From Monosiga brevicollis MX1 (Eukaryota; Opisthokonta; Choanoflagellata; Craspedida; Salpingoecidae), in the NCBI RefSeq assembly GCF_000002865.3, contig NW_001865078.1, positions 284,353 to 312,619 of the forward strand: 28,267 nucleotides of DNA. Direction: 5' to 3'. Made by a program: the position numbers and the translations under genes. Shown piece after piece: positions 2 to 27,309 of the stretch. Position 1 is the stretch's first letter, and every line of letters begins with the position of its first letter. The notes beneath the pieces were generated by a model. It made no database searches, was not told the DNA's origin, and saw only the letters and a list, made by a program, of their open reading frames with translations.

Positions 2-3000
2 CGCCGTAGGAGCAGTGTCCCCGAAACCATTGCTGAAGAAGCGCTCGCCACCAACCCCCCCAAACCCAGCCCCCTGAGCCAGCAACAAACCGCCCCAGCT
101 TTCCAGCCCAACCCGGCCCTAGCGGCCGCCGCCACACCCTCCAGCCAATCCCCACAGACAAAGCGCACATCCGCCCTCGTTGTAGAGCCTTCCCCTGCAC
201 TAAAGGCATCGGCTGCAGAAACTCCCAATGCTACCACTACGCCCTTGGCTGAACCCGATCTCCGGCACCGCCATGCGCGGAGCCCCACCTTCTCAGGCCG
301 CATCTCCCCCAACCCGCCCGCCTCTGATGCCGGCGCCTCGTCCAACGCTGCGTCCCCTCCCACCGCCATGACAGCCGTGGGCATGATCATGAACAAGGAT
401 GCTGCCGGGCCCAAAGCCCCTCTTCGCAGCGCCCTCAACGAAGCTGCCCAGCTCGCACCATCCACTCGACCCCCCGCCTCAGGCACCAGCCTCCTGCGCG
501 ATGAACCCCTGCCTGATCCCTCCCCCGAGCCCCGTGCCGCTGTCTCACCCCCACCCACGCTCCCTGGTACCGTCGAACGTCGCCTCAGCCGGGTGGGGCC
601 CGAGACCCCAGCCCCCAAGGACAGCCGCGCTAGCCCAGCCCCTCCCGGCTCTGGAGCTGGCCCCGACGACGATCGGGCCAGCGTCGGGTCCACCTTGTCC
701 CGTCGCCCTAGCATGCTCCAGGAACAAATGACCCTCGAGCGAGGCTTGGAGCGCCAACGCGAACGCCGCCAATCCACCACCCTCAAGCGCCGAGAAAGCA
801 TGGTCAGCAATCAGAGCACCACCAGCACAGACAGCCGTACAAAGGGCCGCCGTGGCCATCGCCGCCGTGCCTCCCATCGCCGCCAGTCCGGCCAAAACTC
901 AGAGATACCCTCTGCTCAACCACAGCACACCTCGGCCATTGCATGTGCGTCATTCCTCTCCACCAGTCTGCAGCGCCCCCTTGACCCTCGTAGGATATGT
1001 ATGACCCGTGTGGGACATGCTTCTCATCTTGTCTGGGCGCCCTTTGCACATTATCTTGGCTCGTGACTTTTCATTCCAGCCCGTGCAAACATTGCCGGAA
1101 GCTTTTTTGGACGTCACAGCAGCGTATCTCCCTCCACTCGATCCGAAGCCTGGAAAGACGTACGTCTGCCATTCTGGACCTTGGACTTTGTCCCTGCTCT
1201 TGCGATGGCGTTACGCTCTCGAAACTCACGACCAGACTCACCACCAATCACGCATTGTTCCGCTCCCTCTCTCGTATCGCCTGGCTTTTGGCTCTGCCCG
1301 TAGGAGGAGGTGCAAGAAGTCAGGGATGAGTATTACGAAGAGGACGTCCTCTGCTGGCGTCTCTACGATTGCACCGACTCTTTCCGCGCCAAGCTTTTGG
1401 CCTTCATGACCCCCCGCCGTGTGCTCCAGTCTCGCGAGGAAACTCGCTGGGGCCGCTTTTGGGTCGCCATTCTAACCGTCGTTGTCTTGTACAACCTCCT
1501 GGCCATTCCCTTTCGCATCGGCTTTCGAGCGACGTGGTACCATCCCGACTGGAAAGCCTTCTTCTACACTTGCGATTACGTCGGCGACGCTATTTTGCTC
1601 TTTGACATATTCCTCAATTTTCGCACCGTTTTCATTTCCGATGGCCTTGAAGTCAAAGACCCAGCTGACATTGGTACGCCACCCCCCAATCGCCCTCGCT
1701 CCCCCATGGCGCCCTTAGCGCCCGACCCCCCTCGCACCTGGCTCTCATCGGCGGCATCGCGATACGTAGTGGTGCATTATGCACGCAACGGCTTCAAGTG
1801 GCATTTCGTAGCCTCGTTACCCATCGATCTCATATTCTGGTACAATCCTTGGGCCAAGGCCCTCTCCCGTCTCCCACGCCTCATCCGTCTTTCCTCGGTA
1901 CGTGCCAGCAACTCCCCTTGCCAGCTTGGCCCAGGCACTGGTCCTTCATCTTGCCTGACTGATGCGACGCAATTTCGACTGACGTTGCCGCGTCCGGTAT
2001 ACAACAGACGCTGAATCAACTCGACGAGCTCTCCCGTAGCACAGAGCTTGGTAACATTATTCAAATCACAAAGGTTGGCCAACCACTTCATGCTTCCCAA
2101 TTTCATCCGCTCCTCCTACTTTGACGCTACCGACCTTGATCAATCTCTCATATACGTCCAACTTGGTTGCTCTCTAGCTGTTCTCGTCGGTGATGATTCT
2201 GTGTCACTGGATGGCCTGTCTTTACTTTTTCGTCGCATACCATGATGGCTTTGCACCAATCTACGACCCGGAGAGCTTTACCCCTGCCGTGGGCGTGCGT
2301 CATTGGATCGTGTCCAGGCAATACCTCTACGGCCTTTCATGGAGCGTTGATGTCATTTCCGGTGCCTTTGTCATCAGTGCGTCCCTCGACTCTTTTTGCC
2401 GCGCTTACGCACAATAGAACCGCTTTTACTTGCTCCTGACAACTTTGCTCACGACGCCCCTCGCTCTTCCTTGCTTTCGCTGGCTCTCCCTCCCTCTTCC
2501 TCTGCGCATTGGATCCGCTTCACGCGAGCAGCTGCTCCGCCATTCTCCGACCTGCAACGTGGTTTCATGATCCTCTGCGACTTTGCCCACGTGTTGGTGA
2601 TCGCCTTCTTCATCGGTAGCGTCGAGCAGCTTCTGCTCGAGTGGAATCGTGATGCTGAAGAGTTTCGCGCGCGCATGATGAAACTGAACCAGTTTATGGG
2701 CCGCCGGCATCTTCACAAGGAGTTGCAGCAGCGCATTCGCAACGTGCGTTGCCCCTCGTGGCTCGGGAGTGCCAAATCTGTTTGGCCTTGCTTCTGTCGT
2801 CCTTGCCTAATGCCTCAAATTGTGCTCATTTTGTCGTCGTTTCTGCATCGAATATGATAGTACTATTTCCATGCATGGTCTCGCCAAGGTGCTTTTGACA
2901 ACCCTCAAATTCTCCGGTATGTGGACTGAGACCCAAGTCAGGATCTTTTGTGATTCCTTTTCCTCCTTTTCAAAAGCGACAACATCTTACCCAAGCATCA

Positions 3001-4612
3001 ATCGCCGCCTGCAGAGACTTGCCCGTCAACCTTCGTACCGAGGTCAATGTGTGTACACATGGAAAGGTGTTGGCCAAGGTGCCCCTTTTCAAGTCACTGG
3101 ACAAGTCTTTCTTGAACCAACTGACGGAGAAGATCAAGCTGCGCATTTATGCGCCAGGCGATCTCGTTGTGGCTGTTGGCGAGGAGGGTGATGAAATGTT
3201 CATTCTCAATCGCGTAAGCTTCTTGCCTTGCAGCCGCAGACCCATCTGCAACTGCGTATCACGCAAGGCCTAACCCCCCTCCCCTGGGCATTGATATCTC
3301 ATAGGGCAACGTGGACATTGAAAATCGTGAGGGCAAGGTCCTTGTCACCCTGGGAGAGGGGTCAGTCATCGGCGAGGTATGGCTCCTGACAGCTCCCACC
3401 GAGCTGAAATGCTTTTGTATCTCTTGGCGATTGACTTTGAAGACGCAGCATGTAACATTGCTTTGCAATGTGCTTGCCTAGGTTGCCTTCTTCTCTCCCA
3501 ATTCGAAGCGAACGGCTACCGTACGAGCCAAGACCTGGTGTGACTTTGCCTGCCTGGAAAAACAAGACTTTATGGCTGTGGCTTCGCGCTTCCCCGAAGA
3601 GGTTTGTATGCCCGCTACACAACTCGATGCCCACTCCAGGTCTTTTCGAGCCTCCTCCTGTGAATGATTCAGCTCACATTGGGGCATGTTGTGTCGACTC
3701 AGCGCATGGCGGTCGAGTCCTTGGCTCATGCTCGCCTGGCCAAGGATTTGCTCCGGAAGAAGATTAGCGACCATCCCTTGTTCAAGGGCTGCGAGGCTGA
3801 TCTGATTGCAAAGGTGGCCGACCGTTTTGGATCTTACGAGTTTGTCGGCGGCGAAACCCTTTATGTACAAGGAGAGCCCGCCGATGCTTGGCTCTTTGTC
3901 GGCCTTGGCAAGGTTGTGGTTTCAGAGCAGGTCTTGGGTGTGACGAAGAAACACGACAAAACCGTTAAGACCGAGCTGGAGGCAGGTGAATTTCTCGACG
4001 TCATTGCCTTTATGCAGGAAGGCAAGCGCAAGGACATGTGCAAGGCCTTGGGCTCAGCTAGCATCTTAGCTTTGGACAAGACGGCGTTTGATCAGATTCT
4101 CCTCGAGCAACATGCCTTTGATATTGTCAACCAAAATTCCCAGGAGATTGCGCGTAAAGCCCGACTCGCGAGTGCAAAGCACAAATTCAAGCGCGCCATG
4201 GCTCGCCTTCGGACTTCCAACCTGCTGGGCAGCTCCGTCTCGAGGGTGCGCCCCCGCCTCACTGAGTGCTTTGTTTGTTTGCATGCGGGCTGAGGCTCAC
4301 ATCACAATCTTACGACTGCTGTCATTGTCATTATTGTGGTGCCAACTTACACAGGAGCCCAGCATTCGGGAAAGCGACTCAGACTCGGTGGCGGATATGC
4401 AGGCAGCTGGAGAGGTAAGTCGGGACATTGCTGTATCGACATGTTGCTGCGCGTAGCTGCGTCCTGATTCGATCTCACGACGCCCTTTAACTCTTTAGAC
4501 TTTGAAGACTCTGTCGGATGAGGTGCTTGACAGCAAGCTCAAGGAAGCTCTCAAGCTCATCACCAACATTAGCTCAGTGCGTACGCAGCGCTTGTCGGCC
4601 AAGCCAGCGTAA
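2..4612 (+). CDS. Cyclic-nucleotide-gated-type cation channel with two tandem cNMP-binding domains (5' partial)
   Basis: Exons: <2-944, 1080-1159, 1304-1673, 1770-1897, 2008-2073, 2178-2376, 2532-2743, 2861-2916, 3015-3213, 3305-3376, 3482-3601, 3703-4245, 4355-4414, 4499-4612 (TAA). All phases match, giving at least 1053 residues. The first ~340 residues are Ser/Pro/Ala-rich. The core then follows in order: S1 (FWVAILTVVVLYNLLAI), S2 (AILLFDIFLNFRTVF), S3, a weak S4 (RLPRLIR), an S4-S5 region of CNG length, S5 (ILCHWMACLYFFVA), pore, S6 (FAHVLVIAFFIGSVEQ) and a C-linker (YYFHAWSRQGAFD). The first cNMP-binding domain keeps the phosphate-binding cassette (GSVIGEVAFF then KRTATV). The second (3703-4245) is recognisable but lacks the GE and RTA residues. 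A short acidic and helical tail ends the protein. It should sit in plasma or flagellar membrane and pass cations when cAMP or cGMP binds; this is inferred from the family. S4-S5 spacing and the C-linker favour CNG/HCN over EAG. The gene begins upstream of the window. Confidence 0.88.
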
Positions 4613-5091: not shown

Positions 5092-7824
5092 CTAGCTGAA
5101 CCAGCCACCAGTAAAAGATTTGAGAACGCCACCGACAGTGCTGGTCACCGAGGCAGCCGTGGCCTTGGTCTCGAGACGATGGGCCAACGAGGGATATTGC
5201 CGGTAGTCAATGGCCAGATCAAAGACCAAGGGCTTGCATCGGATCGGCTAACGAGTCACGGGATGCAAAACGCGGTGAGCATTCGCCAGAACATGATCAT
5301 GAGATAGCAACGAGAGCCCTGTGCTGGGCAAGGCAAACAAGCATGGGCATAAGCAGCTGGCGAACCTGCATTTGGGGTGGAAGAGCAACAAGAGGACGCT
5401 CCAATGCGGCCTCTGAGTCGTCAAAGACCTGCAAGTCATCGGCCAAAGCTGTGGTGGCCGCTGCACTTTTGGTAGCCGAGGCCTGGGCATCGGTAAGCGC
5501 CACGGTGGCCTTCATCGTGAGATGAACGGCACGGATGCTGCGCTTGACCATGGCCAGATCAGCTTGGACGCGCTGGTCTTCAGACAATGGCTCGTCTAGA
5601 CGCTTGATGGCAGCGTGGGCCTGTGTACAACGCTCCTGTGTGCGATCGTACAGACGCAGGCTCTCCTTGAACTAAACAGGGTAAGAAGCGATGGTTCAAA
5701 TGATGAGTGAAAGAGTGGATGGGCGAGGTTGCAAGGAAGGAGGTGCTGGGGAAACGCCGTAGGATGGCCCCGCTATGGTACCTTGTCGGTGCGGCGCAGA
5801 ACCTCCGCCACGTAAAAGCAGCGCAGGGCACGAAAGTAGGCTTGGCGAGCGGCAATGGCATCCATGGCATCGGCATCATCCTGGATCAACTCAATGGTCT
5901 CGAGATCGGTGACAACTTGCAGCTGGTCGTCATAAAGGCGAATAAGTTCATCTGGCTTGCCCTCATCGGCACGCAGGCGGGCGGCACTGGCATCGACCAT
6001 GACGTAGTTGCGTTCCATGGTTGTGCGCAGGCTGGTCAGAGAAAAGAGCAGAAGAACAGGGGACAGGGTGAGCAAAACAGGCAAACGGGCATCAACAAAA
6101 AGAGTCAATGTTGTTTGACGCGGCCAATGGGAGGGAAGCGCACCGTTCGGCGGCGAGGTAGGCTTTGAGAAATTGAAGGTGGGCTTGTTTTTCCAGAGAG
6201 GACTCGGAGGCATTGGAGCCGGCCTCGGCGCGTTCATCGGCCAAGGCCTTGGCGGTCACGCGCTCGGCTTCGGCATAGTCCATGAGGAGCTGATCAAAGG
6301 CGACCAAGTGTTCCTTAGTGTCGGCAAAATTGGCGGCTGTCATTTCATCACGGCGGCCCTGAATCTGGGCCAAGGTCTGGCGGATGGGCAGCGTGGGCAC
6401 GGGAGCTGTGCGGCCGAGCCAGGTGACGTTGGCGAAGCTGTCCGCATCGCCTTCGTGCTCGACGACCAGGGCAGCCTCGAGACGTTCACCAAGCATGGCC
6501 ATGACACCCGCATCGTCGGCGGCCAGCTGGGCTTTGAGGTCCTTGAGGGCCTTGGAGGCGTCGGCGCCGTGGCCCTGGGTCTGAGCAATGTTGTAGTGAC
6601 AGTAGCGAAGGCTGGCGGTGATTTCGGTTACGCGCTGTTGGTAGATTTTTTGCAGTTCAGCGTCCGCGGCAATGGCGGGAGTAGCCGCAAGGCCCTGGTA
6701 GATCTGGGCACTCTGCGTCAGGAGCTCGGTGGCGCGCTCCCAGTTGCTGTTTTCAAAGGCAGCCACGCCGGCGATCCAGGTCAGATAAGCCTGCAGCTCT
6801 GTCTGCGTAGCTTCTTCCACGGTGGCAGTTTGTTCCTCGGCCGCTTGGGCTAGCAGGGCCTTGAGAGCTTCGGCGTGCTTGACGGCCTTGCCCAGGCGAG
6901 TGCGCTGTGGACAGCAAGGAGGGGTGAGCGGGCGAAGCGCCAGTTGTCTGCATGCTGTTGGTGTGGTTGTTGTTGTGTGTTGTGATGAGGGAAAAGGGCG
7001 ATACGGAGACACGAACAGCGTGCATGCGTTTGCGTGGCGTGTCCTTGGCGTCTTGCTTGTCCTCAAGGGCGTAGGCCCAAGCCTGTGTCATCAAGTACAT
7101 TGGGAAAAAAGATAGGGGAGGGGGGTCGTTGAGAAGGGCGCTGAGCGAAGCACGGGAGGAGCGCTCGGGACGCAAGAGAGGATTGAGCGTGCGGGGATAG
7201 ACGTACGCGCTCAATTTCAAGCAGAAGGATCTCAAGGTGCGCTTCGCTGGTCAGGTTGGCGGCGGTGATGGGCGCCGGCTGGAAGGTGCGCTTGCCATGG
7301 GTCAGCTTGATCGTATGACGCAGGCGGTGGATGCGACGGGTGCAAAAGCGACTGAGGGAGGGAGCAAGGGAAGGGAAGGGAAGGGAAGGGAAGAGAAGGG
7401 AAGGGAAGGGAAGGGTTGAGATGAGGACGATGAGGCATCAAAGGTGAAGCTTGTAGTACCCAGCACAGACGAGACTCAAGACGCATGGCTTCATCCATCG
7501 CCAAGAACCAGAAGTATCACTGCCATTGAGGGCGGGGGAGAGGGAGAGAGGGGGGGGGAGAGGGGGAGAGGGGGAAGCGATGCGCAGCCATACGCACCGA
7601 TAGCGCTGAAAGTCGTTGTGGCGCAGACCATGTTGACGTTGCAGACCGACCACCATGGGCAACACTGGGAGGGAGGTGGGGGCGATACCACGATCAGTCC
7701 ACACACGCATGTCTGTTGTAGTACATCACAGCACAGCACATCACAGATCATCAAAGGGAAGCGCATGATGAAGACACGTACCGTTGCACTGCAGCACGAC
7801 GGCGCTGCCGTTTTCCTCCGCCAT
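5092..7824 (-). CDS. SRP68: Signal recognition particle subunit SRP68
   Basis: Exons in gene order: 7824-7782, 7664-7598, 7351-7207, 7082-7017, 6904-6144, 6031-5782, 5671-5366, 5247-5092 (TAG). Phases agree at all seven junctions. The protein is 597 residues; human SRP68 is about 627. SRP68 binds SRP RNA at its N-terminal domain, pairs with SRP72 through its C-terminus, and helps target ribosomes to the ER. Visible family signatures in order are: QHGLRHNDFQRYRRFCTRR in the RNA-binding domain, ILLLEIERAWAYAL, PRKRMHARTRLGKAVKHAE, RYCHYNIA, TWLGRTAPVP, PDELIRLYD, ALRCFYVAEVL, and near the end PIRCKPLVFDLAIDYRQYP followed by a Gly-rich tail (GGWFS). The start ATG (7824) gives a short leader MAEENGSAVVLQCN. 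The gene is head-to-head with IFT81. The 246-bp intron 7352-7597 holds purine repeats. I know of no other family with this set of motifs. Confidence 0.95.
7352..7597 (-). repeat. Purine-rich repeats inside SRP68 intron (AAGGG array and G-runs)
   Basis: On the + strand, 7368-7415 is a pentanucleotide array of AAGGG with one AAGAG variant. Further along, 7529-7577 is made of G-runs separated by GA (for example GGGGGGGGGAGAGGGGGAG). The whole lies in one intron of SRP68, so the pre-mRNA carries the C/T-rich complement. The G-runs could form a quadruplex in the + strand DNA. Confidence 0.85.
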
Positions 7825-8030: not shown

Positions 8031-8256
<226 letters not shown>

Positions 8257-14592: not shown

Positions 14593-17566
14593 TCAAACCG
14601 CACTTTGGGGACGAGGACCGTAGCCCAGTCGTGCATCGAGCTCTTGGCTCATGTTGCGTTCCATCATCTACCACAATGTCGTGCGGTTTTGGAAACGAAT
14701 TCGCAATCAGGCCAGGCAAGTTTGCGACAGGGCTGACTCGCTTCGCATGACAGGATGTGGTCAATCATGGACTTACGTCTTCAATGCCACCCACATCACG
14801 TCGGCGCACCCACATGTTCACTTGCCGCCACAACTGTGTGGCATGATGTGCCAAATCAATGGCCACGAGCCGCAAGCTATGAATGTCAAAAGCACCAAAT
14901 CAAAGAATGGTGACAACCTCGAACAAATGCCATGGGCACAGGCTGAAACGGCCAATCGCGGTAGAAGGGGGTCGGATGGGACCTTCGTACCGAAAGTCGA
15001 GGAGCATGGACTTGGCACGAAGCCACTCCCACCATGAACGATCTGCTTGCAGCAGGCCCCTTTGGTTGGCGCGTTCAGAACGCGAGAGTTCGAGGCCCTG
15101 AACGGCCGTCTTCGCACGGGAAGACAAGGCACATCGGAGCGAGTTGATGAGTAATGAAAGCAGACCTATTGAGAAGCAAAGGCCAACTTGGGATTGAAAC
15201 TATTCGAGACAGACCTGAGCAAAAATGTTGACGCGATTGACGACGGACCCAGCAGCCTTGTTATTGCCGCGCAGGCAATTCATGGTGCGGCCGAGAATCA
15301 CCAGTTCGGAGGGAATCTTGTGAGTCTCCTTGAGCAATTCGCGCACCCGATTCTTAGCCTCCACCTGAAACTGCATCAGTTGCTATCAGGAGGCGTGATG
15401 CAGTCCATGACATCCATTTCATGGTTGGGAAACAATGGAGCATGAAAAACAGGGGGTCAGCGGCACATCAACCAGTAGACGATCAAGCCAAGAAAACGGG
15501 GAAAACAAAGATGAAAGAGAAAAAAAAAAAAAGCGACGAAGCGAACCTCTTTGGTCAGTTCCTCGGGACGAAGTCGACGGGCGCTCTTTTTGCCAAAAGG
15601 CCGGAACAGCTGAAGGCTGGCAAAGAGCTCCGAGTCGTGGATGCCCCAGTCAGTGCACACTTCTTTCAGGGCCTTGAAGTCGGTCAAGATCAGGCTCTGG
15701 ATTTGGGACAAGTCATCGAGGTCAACTGGCAAAACGGGCGCAATGGTGCAGGGGTGCGGTGCGGACTACAGGCCCCACCTTCCAAAGCTTGCAGTATTGC
15801 AAGCGAAATTCTTCGCGTTGGCAAACGTAGAGACCATGGTCAATGATGACGACCTGTTTCAGAACCGGTGTGGTGAGATACCAAAGCGGTTGGTTGAGAG
15901 AGCGTTGAATGGTGTGGACATGAGGAAGAGTCGTGCCTCTGACCTGGTGCTGTGTTTTGGGGTTGCCTGGTTCTTGTCGAACAATAATGTTGCCAGGGTG
16001 GGGATCACCATGCACGCGGCCGCTGATAAAGAGCTGGTGAGCAAAAGCCCGCATGGTCGTGGTCATGACATCCTTGATGCTGAAACCTAATCCACGCGGG
16101 GCCGTGCCAGTGTCAGGAAAAAGGCAAGGCAGGGGCACCGGGCTGTGCGAGTTCAATGCAAGATGAGCTTGAGGTGGGAAAATTTTTATGGCGCGAAAAA
16201 GACCAACCTTTCGCTTGTAGTTCAGCGGTTTTGGATAGTTTGTCTCCGACAATCCATTCTTGGACCATGACGCGGGGCCGACTAAACTCGTCGTAGACTC
16301 GAGGCACATACACGTGTGGCACATGGCCTTCAAGGTCTTGCTGTGAAGCAGGGAACGTTGGAGCGCGATTTTGAGATTGAAGTTGCAAGGCAGGTGTTTA
16401 AATGGGCGATAGCGGGGGGGGGCTAGGGCATGGGGGGCTCAAAGCATCATGACACCTTGGCCTGCTTGGTAAAGTTGGCCTCGCTGCGAAAGTCGGCTTC
16501 CAAGGTGATGCTTTTGCAGAGGTCATGTGTGGTCCAGTAGAGGGGTAGATCAAAGGTCCACTCAAACGCTTTGACCATGATTCGGTAGCACCAGAGATCA
16601 AAGGGCATCTGGGAGGATCGAGTGAACCGTGCATATGTGTCAGGCAAACAAGGGCGGACGGGGTCGGGGGGCTGCAATTGAGTTTGCAGCCCATGGAGGG
16701 GCATGGCTACCTGGTAGCGGATGTTGGGCTTTTGGACCTTGACAGCCACCTCAGTCCCGTCGTGGAGTTTGGCGTGGTGGACTTGGGCAATCGAGGCCGA
16801 GGCCACGGGCTGGCGATCGAATTCGGCAAAGATTTCGTGCGGGGCCAGGCCATTGAAGTCTTCGCGAAAGACCTTGCACACCTCGTCGTAGTCGACATAT
16901 GGAGCTTGATCCTAATGAAGATTGAGCAGGCAGCAAGGTTTTTGCCAAAGGATGAGAACAAGAGGAAGAAGAAGAGAAAGAGGAAGAAAAGGAGGAGGAA
17001 GAAGAAGAGAGTGGGGCAGGCGACGAGGGGGCCCCGACCTGGAGGGCTGCAAAGAGCTGGCCAAAGGCTGGCGGCATGATGTGGTTCATCAAAGAGACGG
17101 ATTGGCCCAGCTTGATGTAGAGGCCAGCGTTGACGCAGCAAATGTTGTACCTACAAAGAGGATTTGGGCGTCAGCTTGCAGCACCCGAGGGACTCGGGAA
17201 AGCGGCGGGACGGGGCCGGAACGGGCATGTGGGACGAACCAGCGCTGGGCGACACGGGCGTGAATATCGTCGATCGCTTCTGGGTGACGATCGAGGTCAA
17301 TCTTGTAGTCGTACACGGTGGCAATGGCAGCAAAGAGCTAAACGGGTGGATCGACAGCGAGAAGCAAAGAGTTGTGAGCCGGTCGCTCGGGAGCACGGGG
17401 CGGGGGAGGCACGGGGCGCGGTCAGCTCGGGTCGTACGGTGCGGACGTTGCGATTGAAGCGCTCATAGCAAAAGTGGGTGTCATATTGATGAGCAGCCAG
17501 CGCGGTGACGGCAAGGGTCGACTTGATCGGATTGCGCCGCAGCCAGCGCGTCAGGCTCGCCGCCAT
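14593..17566 (-). CDS. ADCK1: ADCK1-type UbiB/ABC1 atypical kinase (mitochondrial)
   Basis: Exons in gene order: 17566-17438, 17337-17240, 17150-17039, 16911-16711, 16608-16456, 16340-16208, 16086-15944, 15853-15779, 15696-15547, ~15364-15215, ~15165-14991, 14876-14777, 14667-14593 (TGA); about 560 residues (human 523). Family hallmarks are present: KxGQ (YIKLGQ, ~residue 89), the Ala-rich loop in place of a Gly-rich loop ([11 protein letters not shown], ~148-158), the ATP-site lysine (VAVKVQKP, K171), an [10 protein letters not shown] segment, HGDPHPGN (~301-308) and the metal-binding DHG (VVIIDHGLY, ~328). DHGLY followed by [11 protein letters not shown] is the ADCK1 form; most relatives have DFG. 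The basic N-terminus ([16 protein letters not shown]) fits mitochondrial import. ADCK1 relatives affect mitochondrial membrane and lipid homeostasis; the substrate is unknown. The exon 10 start could be 15370 (a second AG). The exon 10/11 junction does not keep frame in any ordinary model; downstream exons are mutually in phase. Confidence 0.9.
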
Positions 17567-17748: not shown

Positions 17749-18010
<262 letters not shown>

Positions 18011-25300: not shown

Positions 25301-27309
25301 TCTTATGGTGCTCTAGACCTGGATGAATCTGATGCCGTCCACGATCGCTTTGCACGGAGTCGGCAAGCATTTTTGGCCATTGTACGCTGCTATGGTGCAC
25401 CTACCTATCCTCTCTCAGCTCTCTCTGTTGCGTGCCCTAAATTGTTTCTCTCACCGCATATGCATGGGACCACAGGACCAGGCGGATCACTCGGCACAGC
25501 ATGTGGCGTTGTCGACGGGAGCCTGTGGTGCCAACCGGCGCGTCAGCTACATTTCGCAGCGGCCCACGGCCTTGAGCCCCATTGCCGTAGCCGTGGGTGG
25601 GGCCACAAACATGCCGCGCCTTGAGGAGGTTGGTATTCTTGTCTGCTCGATGCATCTGTGTTCAAGCGCAACCTACGTCCCGCCCACCGTCTTGCTTCCT
25701 CTCTTGCTTTTGAATGTTGTTATTTTGCCGCCTCGTGCTCACGATTGGCGATGGGTGGCTGTTTTCAGGAGGTGCACGTTTTCCAGATGCGACGACGTCA
25801 TGCCCAGGAGCAAGGGGATGATGTGTTGGCTGAGGAGCTGAGTAACCGGGCCATGGAGCTGCAACGCCTCTTGGCCACTGCGGATGAGATGTCCTGGTCA
25901 GTCTTGTGGAAGTCTTGGTTGACTTGGCGGCTGGTGTCCGCATTCATGTGTTTCCACATTTTTATTTTATTTTATTTTTACTTTTTAATTTTTTATTTTT
26001 TTCTAGGGTAACGGTTCAACGTCCGGGTGGGGCAAGCAATAGCGCGTCCCCGTCTAGTCGCCGAGATACATTACAGTCACCACCAACGGTGGCAGGGACG
26101 GCCGACGCGCGCCTGCGCCGTGCCACGGCTCCAACCAAGAGCCATTCCTCACCGCTGTTGATGCACAAGACCTTGGGCAACAATACGCCGCCAGCAGAGC
26201 GTGCGGCTTCTCCAATCTCCGCTGCAGTAACTCCCATCAGCAAGCCGCGAGAAGCAGTTGCTCGCGAGGAGCGCAGCGACGCGCGAGTCGAGCAGCCCAA
26301 GCCTCGACGAGTCTTACCGGCCGTTCCGCCCAGCGTCGGAGCCAGCCCGATCGCCACGCCGCGCGCGTCGACAGACATGGTGAACTCAAGCGCAAGTGCG
26401 CCTGTTCCGCTCATCGGGCAAGCACTCAAGCAGCCTGCCTTGGTTCCTACGGTGACCGGTTCCAGCCCAAGTTCAGAGCCGGAGCGACAGCTGCCAGCAA
26501 CCCCGCAGACCAAATCGCAGAATCAACCCTCCGCATCGGGTGATGGCAGTGCTTCACTGACCGTGCCACGGACCGCAAGCTTTGCCACAACGGAGAGTGC
26601 GGGTGCGACGCCCAGTTCTCTCCGGGAGTTTGAGCTCAACGAGTTTCTTGTGGAGGAGCAAGAAATGAAGCGAACAACATCCAGCCCCAGGCCCGAAGCT
26701 GGATCCTCGAAGCCGATTGCGGACACGTTGGGAGACTCTGCCGTCAAGGCCGAGCCCGTCAAGGCCGAACCCGTCAAGGCCAAGCCTGTCAAGGCCGAGC
26801 CCGTCAAGGCCGGCGCTACCAAAGCTGCGACCAAGACGGACCAAAAATCGTCGCCAGCAAAGACAACGACTCAAGCGCCGCCGCCTGCCCCGGCCAATGA
26901 CAATGCAGAGGACGAGGAGGACGAGGAGGACGAGGAGGTTGGCACGGCCAGCGATACGTCGACCAGTCGGGCATCAAGCGCAGCTGCCAGCCGTGGATCG
27001 AGCACTCGCAGCACGTCGAGCGGGCGGCGAACGTCCAAGTGGGCCAAGGTCACGACCCTGCCGCCGGCGCCGGCAGACGTGGGCGAGCGGGTGCTGGTGG
27101 TTCATGCCAAGGGGCGGCGGATGGGAACAGTGCGGTTCTATGGCTTTGTTGACTTTTCACCCGGGCCCTGGGTGGGGGTGGAGTACGACAAGGCGGAGGG
27201 AAAACATGACGGCAGCAAGGGTGGTAAGACGTATTTCAGCTGCCCAGCCAATCATGGCTCGTTTGTTCGACCCGATGCCGTGCGTCGCGTGCTCAAGAGC
27301 AAGAGCTGA
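19323..27309 (+). CDS. KIF13: Kinesin-3 of the KIF13 type, with FHA and C-terminal CAP-Gly domains
   Basis: 23 exons: 19323-19371, 19459-19562, 19676-19733, 19953-20017, 20153-20278, 20374-20571, 20652-20729, 20813-20909, 21002-21070, 21158-21344, 21443-21561, 21652-21749, 21818-21973, 22105-22206, 22292-22365, 22511-24350, 24510-24603, 24709-25032, 25126-25203, 25317-25381, 25476-25628, 25769-25896, 26007-27309 (TGA). All phases agree; 1854 residues (human KIF13B about 1826). Motor domain ~1-350: P-loop GQTGSGKS (~99-106), switch I NSESSRSH (~214), switch II DLAGSE (~251), then [17 protein letters not shown]. Kinesin-3 features follow: coiled coil, [26 protein letters not shown] leading the FHA domain (~440-545), a KIF1B-like segment (~725) and a later stalk domain with [12 protein letters not shown] (~1030). 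A Ser/Pro/Ala-rich linker has four KAEPV-like units. The last ~75 residues are a CAP-Gly domain ([20 protein letters not shown], then GKHDG), diagnostic of KIF13B/Khc-73. It is a plus-end vesicle motor. Alternative KIF1/UNC-104 is excluded by the CAP-Gly and lack of a PH domain. Confidence 0.94.
22080..22100 (+). repeat. T run directly abutting a KIF13 splice acceptor
   Basis: About 21 consecutive T end only a few bases before the GTAG acceptor that opens the exon at 22105. Here the run serves as the polypyrimidine tract itself. Confidence 0.9.
26744..26815 (+). repeat. 15-bp coding repeat in KIF13 linker (KAEPV units)
   Basis: Consecutive 15-bp units encode [20 protein letters not shown] and then KAG. 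They precede an acidic DEEDEEDEE run at about 26911-26937, giving a basic-then-acidic disordered linker just before the CAP-Gly domain. Confidence 0.9.

Follow-up and report, generated by a model that had tools for sequence, protein, structure and literature searches.

Can a cyclic nucleotide-gated (CNG)-type channel subunit be built around a pore loop that has no recognisable selectivity filter and, if so, what might such a subunit do? This is the question raised by a gene at the beginning of a 28,267-nucleotide stretch of Monosiga brevicollis DNA (hereafter the window, equivalent to C17:284353-312619 of the searched assembly, which totals 39.5 Mb over 57 contigs). In known channels, no part is more conserved than the filter. 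Among CNBD channels, marked departures from TVG(Y/F)G have been described as rare and individual, the exception being the metazoan CNG clade with its TIGE motif (PMC7576140). Two further papers state that choanoflagellates possess CNG channels (PMC10770216), and that in M. brevicollis metazoan-like CNG channels occur and HCN was not found (PMC4640657). It is possible that the literature already lists the window gene among CNG channels; in searches of open-access full texts, we found no description of its filter.

The gene lies on the forward strand at window positions 2-4612 and comprises 14 readable exons. Its true start is upstream of the window, where the directly adjoining DNA is an unbroken run of N. 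Joining the exons yields a continuous reading frame of 1,063 residues, which is open partly by construction as splices were picked to preserve the frame; homology backs exons 3 to 11. The first readable exon (2..944), incomplete at the window start, encodes a Pro/Ser/Ala-rich N-terminal region and is placed by its frame, as is exon 2 (1080..1159), for which no homology was found. Frame and homology to solved structures define exon 3 (1304..1673; pre-S1 to S2-S3), exon 4 (1770..1897; S3-S4), exon 5 (2008..2073; the post-S4 linker), exon 6 (2178..2376; S5, turret, pore helix and the filter stretch to GAFVI), exon 7 (2532..2743; the loop remainder TAPPFSD, S6 at about 2552-2635 and the start of the C-linker) and exon 8 (2861..2916; C-linker). 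Pfam matches additionally support exon 9 (3015..3213), in which the C-linker ends and the first CNBD begins, as well as exons 10 (3305..3376) and 11 (3482..3601), both within this domain. Exon 13 (4355..4414) is placed by frame only, and the last exon (4499..4612) closes with a TAA stop codon at 4610-4612.

Towards its N-terminal side, the protein has Pfam matches to Ion_trans (2.1e-13) and to a cNMP-binding domain (6.5e-16); together with structure comparison, they reveal the six-helix Ion_trans core, C-linker and CNBD that characterise CNG channels. Residues 53-473 of the 474-residue core matched the solved structures of CNGA1 (7.8e-57), HCN1 (9e-41) and CNGB3 (4e-35); CNGA1, CNGA3, CNGA2 and TAX-4 ranked first, followed by CNGA4, HCN, SthK, CNGB3 and KCNH, and these scores rule out an HCN or KCNH identity. 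The first CNBD retains the GE and RTA motifs when aligned to CNGA1, with KRTATVRA in exon 11 opposite the phosphate-binding RRTAN, so that both the phosphate-binding Arg and Thr are present. Gene structure and homology indicate that this is a real, intact CNG-like channel subunit gene of a unicellular holozoan. A holozoan source is also suggested by the 114 SH2 matches in the genome, set against 0 of 14 prokaryote controls, and one SH2 protein compared with PDB entries had PLC-gamma as its first match; the SH2 count and an IFT81 gene in the window fit a choanoflagellate. A second cNMP-binding domain follows in tandem behind the first (exon 12, 3673..4245; domain at about 3841-4104) with a weaker match (PF00027, 6.1e-9). 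By eye, its phosphate-cassette Glu and Arg appear to be lost and the Arg/Thr pair seems absent. An open-access text search for channels with two cNMP-binding domains turned up nothing but a paper on PKA.

At the place of TIGE in CNGA and of GYG in K+ and HCN channels, the window gene carries WSVDVISGAFVITAPPFSD, within the full pore loop RQYLYGLSWSVDVISGAFVITAPPFSDLQRGF. Exon 6 contributes the pore helix and atypical filter as WSVDVISGAFVI plus the first base of a Thr codon (2340..2376), a phase-1 intron occupies 2377..2531, and the spliced reading over the 2376/2532 junction is RQYLYGLSWSVDVISGAFVI|TAPPFSDLQRGF, with the Thr codon split A|CT. The filter position reads SGAFVIT. It contains none of the motifs given for CNG subunits (TIGE in CNGA, TVGD in CNGA4, TIGG in CNGB; PMC10761061), nor the G(Y/F)G of HCN and K+ CNBD channels. 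The stretch quoted in the earlier note has a single acidic residue, a pore-helix Asp encoded at 2349-2351; the statement that no acidic residue is present is therefore correct for the filter core and incorrect for that stretch as a whole.

The HMMER alignment places T-I-G-E of CNGA1 opposite A-F-V-I and makes the window loop one residue longer than that of CNGA1, rather than about two as had been proposed. A gapless count to hERG, whose filter is Ser624-Val-Gly-Phe-Gly628, sets these residues opposite Gly-Ala-Phe-Val-Ile, with Phe and Ile at glycines 626 and 628. Neither alignment preserves the filter glycine, nor the acid or second glycine. The loop length appears to be K+-type, since the aligned window pore spans equal those of LliK, SthK, hERG and CNGC15b without a net gap (for CNGC5 the spans are 125 and 123, and those for CNGA, TAX-4 and HCN take in the turret). 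The flanks had been likened to CNG channels, and they do align with CNGA1 and CNGA3: YxYxLxWS precedes the filter and PP..D follows it, as in CNGA. In the alignment, S6 keeps the glycine equivalent to CNGA3 Gly397, and Ile occupies the two positions of the hydrophobic gate, where CNGA has Phe and Val.

A missing filter could reflect a wrong splice. Thirteen single-intron solutions keep the frame at the pore (GT or GC donors at 2320-2449, AG acceptors to 2559, introns of more than 40 bases). TIGE or GYG occurs in none of them, nor was a TIGE-, TIGG- or GYG-like peptide found in any of the six frames of 2178-2743, which upholds the original reading of a pore devoid of both signatures. Donor 2377 scores 5.4 bits; across the paralogue pair, 23 further introns (picked by homology and frame) have donors of 3.5 to 12.4 bits, one of them lower than 2377. 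Acceptor 2531 scores 0.6 bits, below the 4.3 to 8.9 range of the same 23 introns. The AG at 2417 reaches 4.3 bits; we disfavoured it despite the better score, as it implies a 41-base intron, where the shortest of the others has 71 bases, and 38 additional residues, still without a filter. Acceptor 2528, three bases ahead of 2531, may be an alternative that adds one Ala. The 99-base stretch ending at acceptor 2531 is 72% pyrimidine, and the APPFSD that this acceptor produces aligns with PPPVRD of CNGA1. The alternative donor noted before at 2361 has its GT beginning at 2362; its product, WSVDVISAAPPF, indeed lacks both signatures.

An extra exon inserting a TIGE- or GYG-like filter, raised in the earlier note, has no usable GT in this intron. 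Between 2378 and 2531 there is a single GT, at 2381, and it precedes the first AG, at 2417; a GT-AG cassette exon does not fit here, and one carrying a hidden filter is ruled out for GT donors. A frameshift masking a filter is likewise ruled out, and no simple indel hides one, because the motif occurs in no frame. The spliced reading over 2376/2532 held up, and what we consider its strongest support comes from a paralogue, in which the pore intron lies at the same codon and in the same phase 1 (SGAFVI|T in the window gene, TDVGGE|S in the paralogue).

This paralogue, on contig C24 (modelled part G000:C24:301649-304614), was the only one found in a genome search with the window protein, and is 42% identical to it over the aligned core. 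Five of the eight window-gene introns of the aligned region are common in position and phase, a count that leaves out the common end of both junction lists; besides the pore intron, shared junctions lie at the start of exon 4 (phase 1), at the end of exon 5 (K|L, phase 0) and at both ends of exon 8. The paralogue pore loop, WGVKGVTDVGGESPRAQTNLQHAF (WGVKGVTDVGGES), equals the window loop in length when the favoured acceptor is used. Its splice has a donor of 5.3 bits and an acceptor of 6.5 bits, and acceptor 3528 in place of 3519 would make the loop three residues shorter; none of 19 frame-keeping splices gives TIGE, TIGG or GYG. The paralogue filter, VKGVTDVGGES, is also atypical and is CNGB-like in two respects. 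A Lys occupies the position, located by counting from the filter, of the basic pore-helix residue K841 of CNGB1 and R403 of CNGB3 (PMC10761061), and there is a Gly-Gly as in TIGG, which is followed by Glu. The window protein has its Asp at the position of this Lys, and it is possible that the two form a complementary pore-helix pair. The S1-S6 core of the paralogue is nevertheless closer to CNGA1 (3.7e-24) than to CNGB1 (9.5e-10). Ion_trans and CNBD are present, although the phosphate-cassette Thr is replaced, and a second CNBD is partly recognised (Pfam 0.0034, below the cut-off).

Conservation between the two paralogues is inverted, the filter having diverged while the remainder of the protein is kept. 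Identities amount to 43/115 in S1-S4, 7/21 in S5, 8/27 in the turret, 13/28 in S6, 37/65 in the C-linker and 54/98 in the first CNBD. From the pore helix to PFSD they fall to 3/25, with 2/13 in the core from W to T, and the pore helix with the filter is the least conserved of the eight named segments. In 12-column windows the filter has 0/12 identities; stretches behind S4 and in the turret also come down to 1/12.

Elsewhere in the genome, a PF00027 profile search gave nine matches, two of which are the window gene and its paralogue. A third CNBD channel was not found with the PF00027 and PF00520 profiles, whose counts are lower bounds, as split exons can be missed. Of the other PF00027 matches, those on C19, C48 and C32 lie on the reverse strand and another is on C43; none of these four adjoins a PF00520 match, the nearest on the same contig being about 35 kb away (C32). 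At G000:C56:167238-167507 (L045), hydrophobic stretches accompany a cNMP-binding domain and a POPDC1-3 match below the cut-off, and the product is possibly a Popeye-like protein in a unicellular holozoan. Pattern searches for relatives elsewhere gave 64 matches in genome contigs and 122 in viral contigs, none of which was confirmed.

As a control, 28 other Ion_trans/Ion_trans_2 loci of the same genome were read on both strands. T(V/I)G(Y/F)G filters occur seven times among them, distributed over six sites, namely C45:291k (L004/L061/L065), C32 (L017/L058), C26 with two filters (L057/L059), C45:111k (L060/L062), C56 (L063) and C48 (L064), so the assembly displays normal filters elsewhere. TIGE, TVGE, TIGD and TVGD occur in none of the 28 loci on either strand. 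TIGG/TVGG and loose GLG/GFG strings are found in L001, L002, L005, L006, L007, L010, L015, L018, L057 and L059 and, by eye, look like chance.

The earlier note had left two interpretations for the missing signatures, a novel ion selectivity or a modulatory or non-conducting partner, and the second fits better in our analysis. Our preferred reading, held tentatively and at slightly less than an even chance, is that the window subunit would lack a filter that conducts by itself and would serve as a modulatory or non-conducting, cyclic-nucleotide-binding partner, probably of the C24 paralogue. In this mechanism SGAFVIT would not support homomeric conduction, the first CNBD would bind cyclic nucleotide, and the subunit would co-assemble as a modulatory or silent partner with the C24 product, whose VKGVTDVGGES loop keeps glycines and a glutamate. 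We prefer it because a paralogue is available for pairing and because there is precedent: CNGB1, CNGB3 and CNGA4 are described as forming no functional homomers (PMC10761061; PMC4942689). The analogy to CNGB is a loose one, as CNGB keeps TIGG and the window loop is far more divergent. A canonical principal subunit for pairing was not found in the genome, the paralogue filter being atypical as well. It is conceivable, if doubtful, that the whole CNG-type family of this organism consists of two co-diverged subunits forming an obligate heterotetramer, in whose pore SGAFVIT and VGGE would be combined and the Asp would face the Lys.

Other explanations draw on parts of the same evidence. That neither paralogue conducts, both being channel-shaped membrane sensors or scaffolds that bind cyclic nucleotides, would agree with the lack of a canonical filter in both detected CNBD-channel genes and with the C-linker and first CNBD being the best-conserved parts; S6 is conserved too, however, and the paralogue retains V-G-G-E, and we regard this explanation as unlikely. 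Slightly less probable still is conduction through a new type of filter, by the window subunit alone or with its paralogue, in which backbone carbonyls of SGAFVIT and other residues would set selectivity. The frame is open through the pore, S6 keeps the Gly397 equivalent and the Ile residues at the gate, and the lack of a net gap to SthK, LliK, hERG and CNGC15b makes the filter look substituted, not deleted, but bulky hydrophobics stand where relatives have glycine carbonyls or an acidic ring. Gene decay, with the filter lost under relaxed constraint, would place the greatest divergence where it is seen, in the filter region. We consider it very unlikely, given the 14 exons in an open frame of 1,063 codons (with the reservation made above) and the well-kept S6, C-linker and first CNBD. 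An artefact, that is, a wrong splice, an assembly error or alternative splicing that conceals the true filter, is suggested by the weak acceptor 2531 beside the higher-scoring AG 2417 and by the N run at which the gene begins. Against this, neither the frame-keeping splices, a GT-AG cassette exon nor any reading frame restores a filter and the paralogue junction is identical in codon and phase, which leaves it the most improbable explanation of those considered.

The two CNG-type genes detected, both off the canonical filter, bear on the origin of the principal and modulatory CNG subunits of animals, and the pair offers a natural test of how much filter loss a CNG-type pore tolerates. If the obligate mixed-pore heterotetramer were true, it would amount to a previously unseen mode of permeation, or to a cyclic-nucleotide sensor in the shape of a channel, near the base of the animal CNG channels. 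Should both paralogues be non-conducting, the organism would employ them in some other way in its cyclic-nucleotide signalling.

The remainder of the window contains several other recognisable loci. On the forward strand, a frame at 9370-11235 matches the IFT81 calponin-homology domain (4.9e-13), marking a flagellar transport gene, and a frame at 25888-27309, in which a 15-base unit is repeated in tandem at 26741-26812, ends in a CAP-Gly domain (4.1e-24), its product presumably resembling the end of a KIF13-like kinesin. Reverse-strand frames match SRP68 (6092-7087, 5e-32) and the ABC1 atypical kinases (15722-16438, 4.3e-11). Two long, imperfect dinucleotide arrays are also present, one of CT (8032-8253, 111 units) and one of GA (17749-17987, 118 units).

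Among known systems, the window protein most resembles CNGA1-3 and TAX-4, with which it shares S1-S6, the C-linker and the CNBD over about 420 residues as well as the phosphate-cassette Arg-Thr. It differs from them in the lack of TIGE, the one additional loop residue and the second CNBD. As read from the alignments, its S6, like that of the paralogue, also has His where CNGA3 has the hinge glycine and Glu where CNGA3 has Gly400. Like CNGB1 and CNGB3, it has abandoned TIGE and lost the filter glutamate, and a modulatory role is proposed for it; in contrast, CNGB retains TIGG and a basic pore-helix residue where the window protein has Asp, and the window core is less similar to CNGB than to CNGA. 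The KCNH and prokaryotic CNBD K+ channels hERG, SthK and LliK have pore spans of equal length, yet the window protein lacks their G(Y/F)G, with Phe and Ile at the glycine positions in the gapless count to hERG. The four-repeat CNGK channels, reported in Salpingoeca rosetta (PMC4749565), are likewise CNBD channels of a choanoflagellate or relative, but whereas CNGK combines four repeats with GYG/GFG filters, the window protein has one repeat and two CNBDs.
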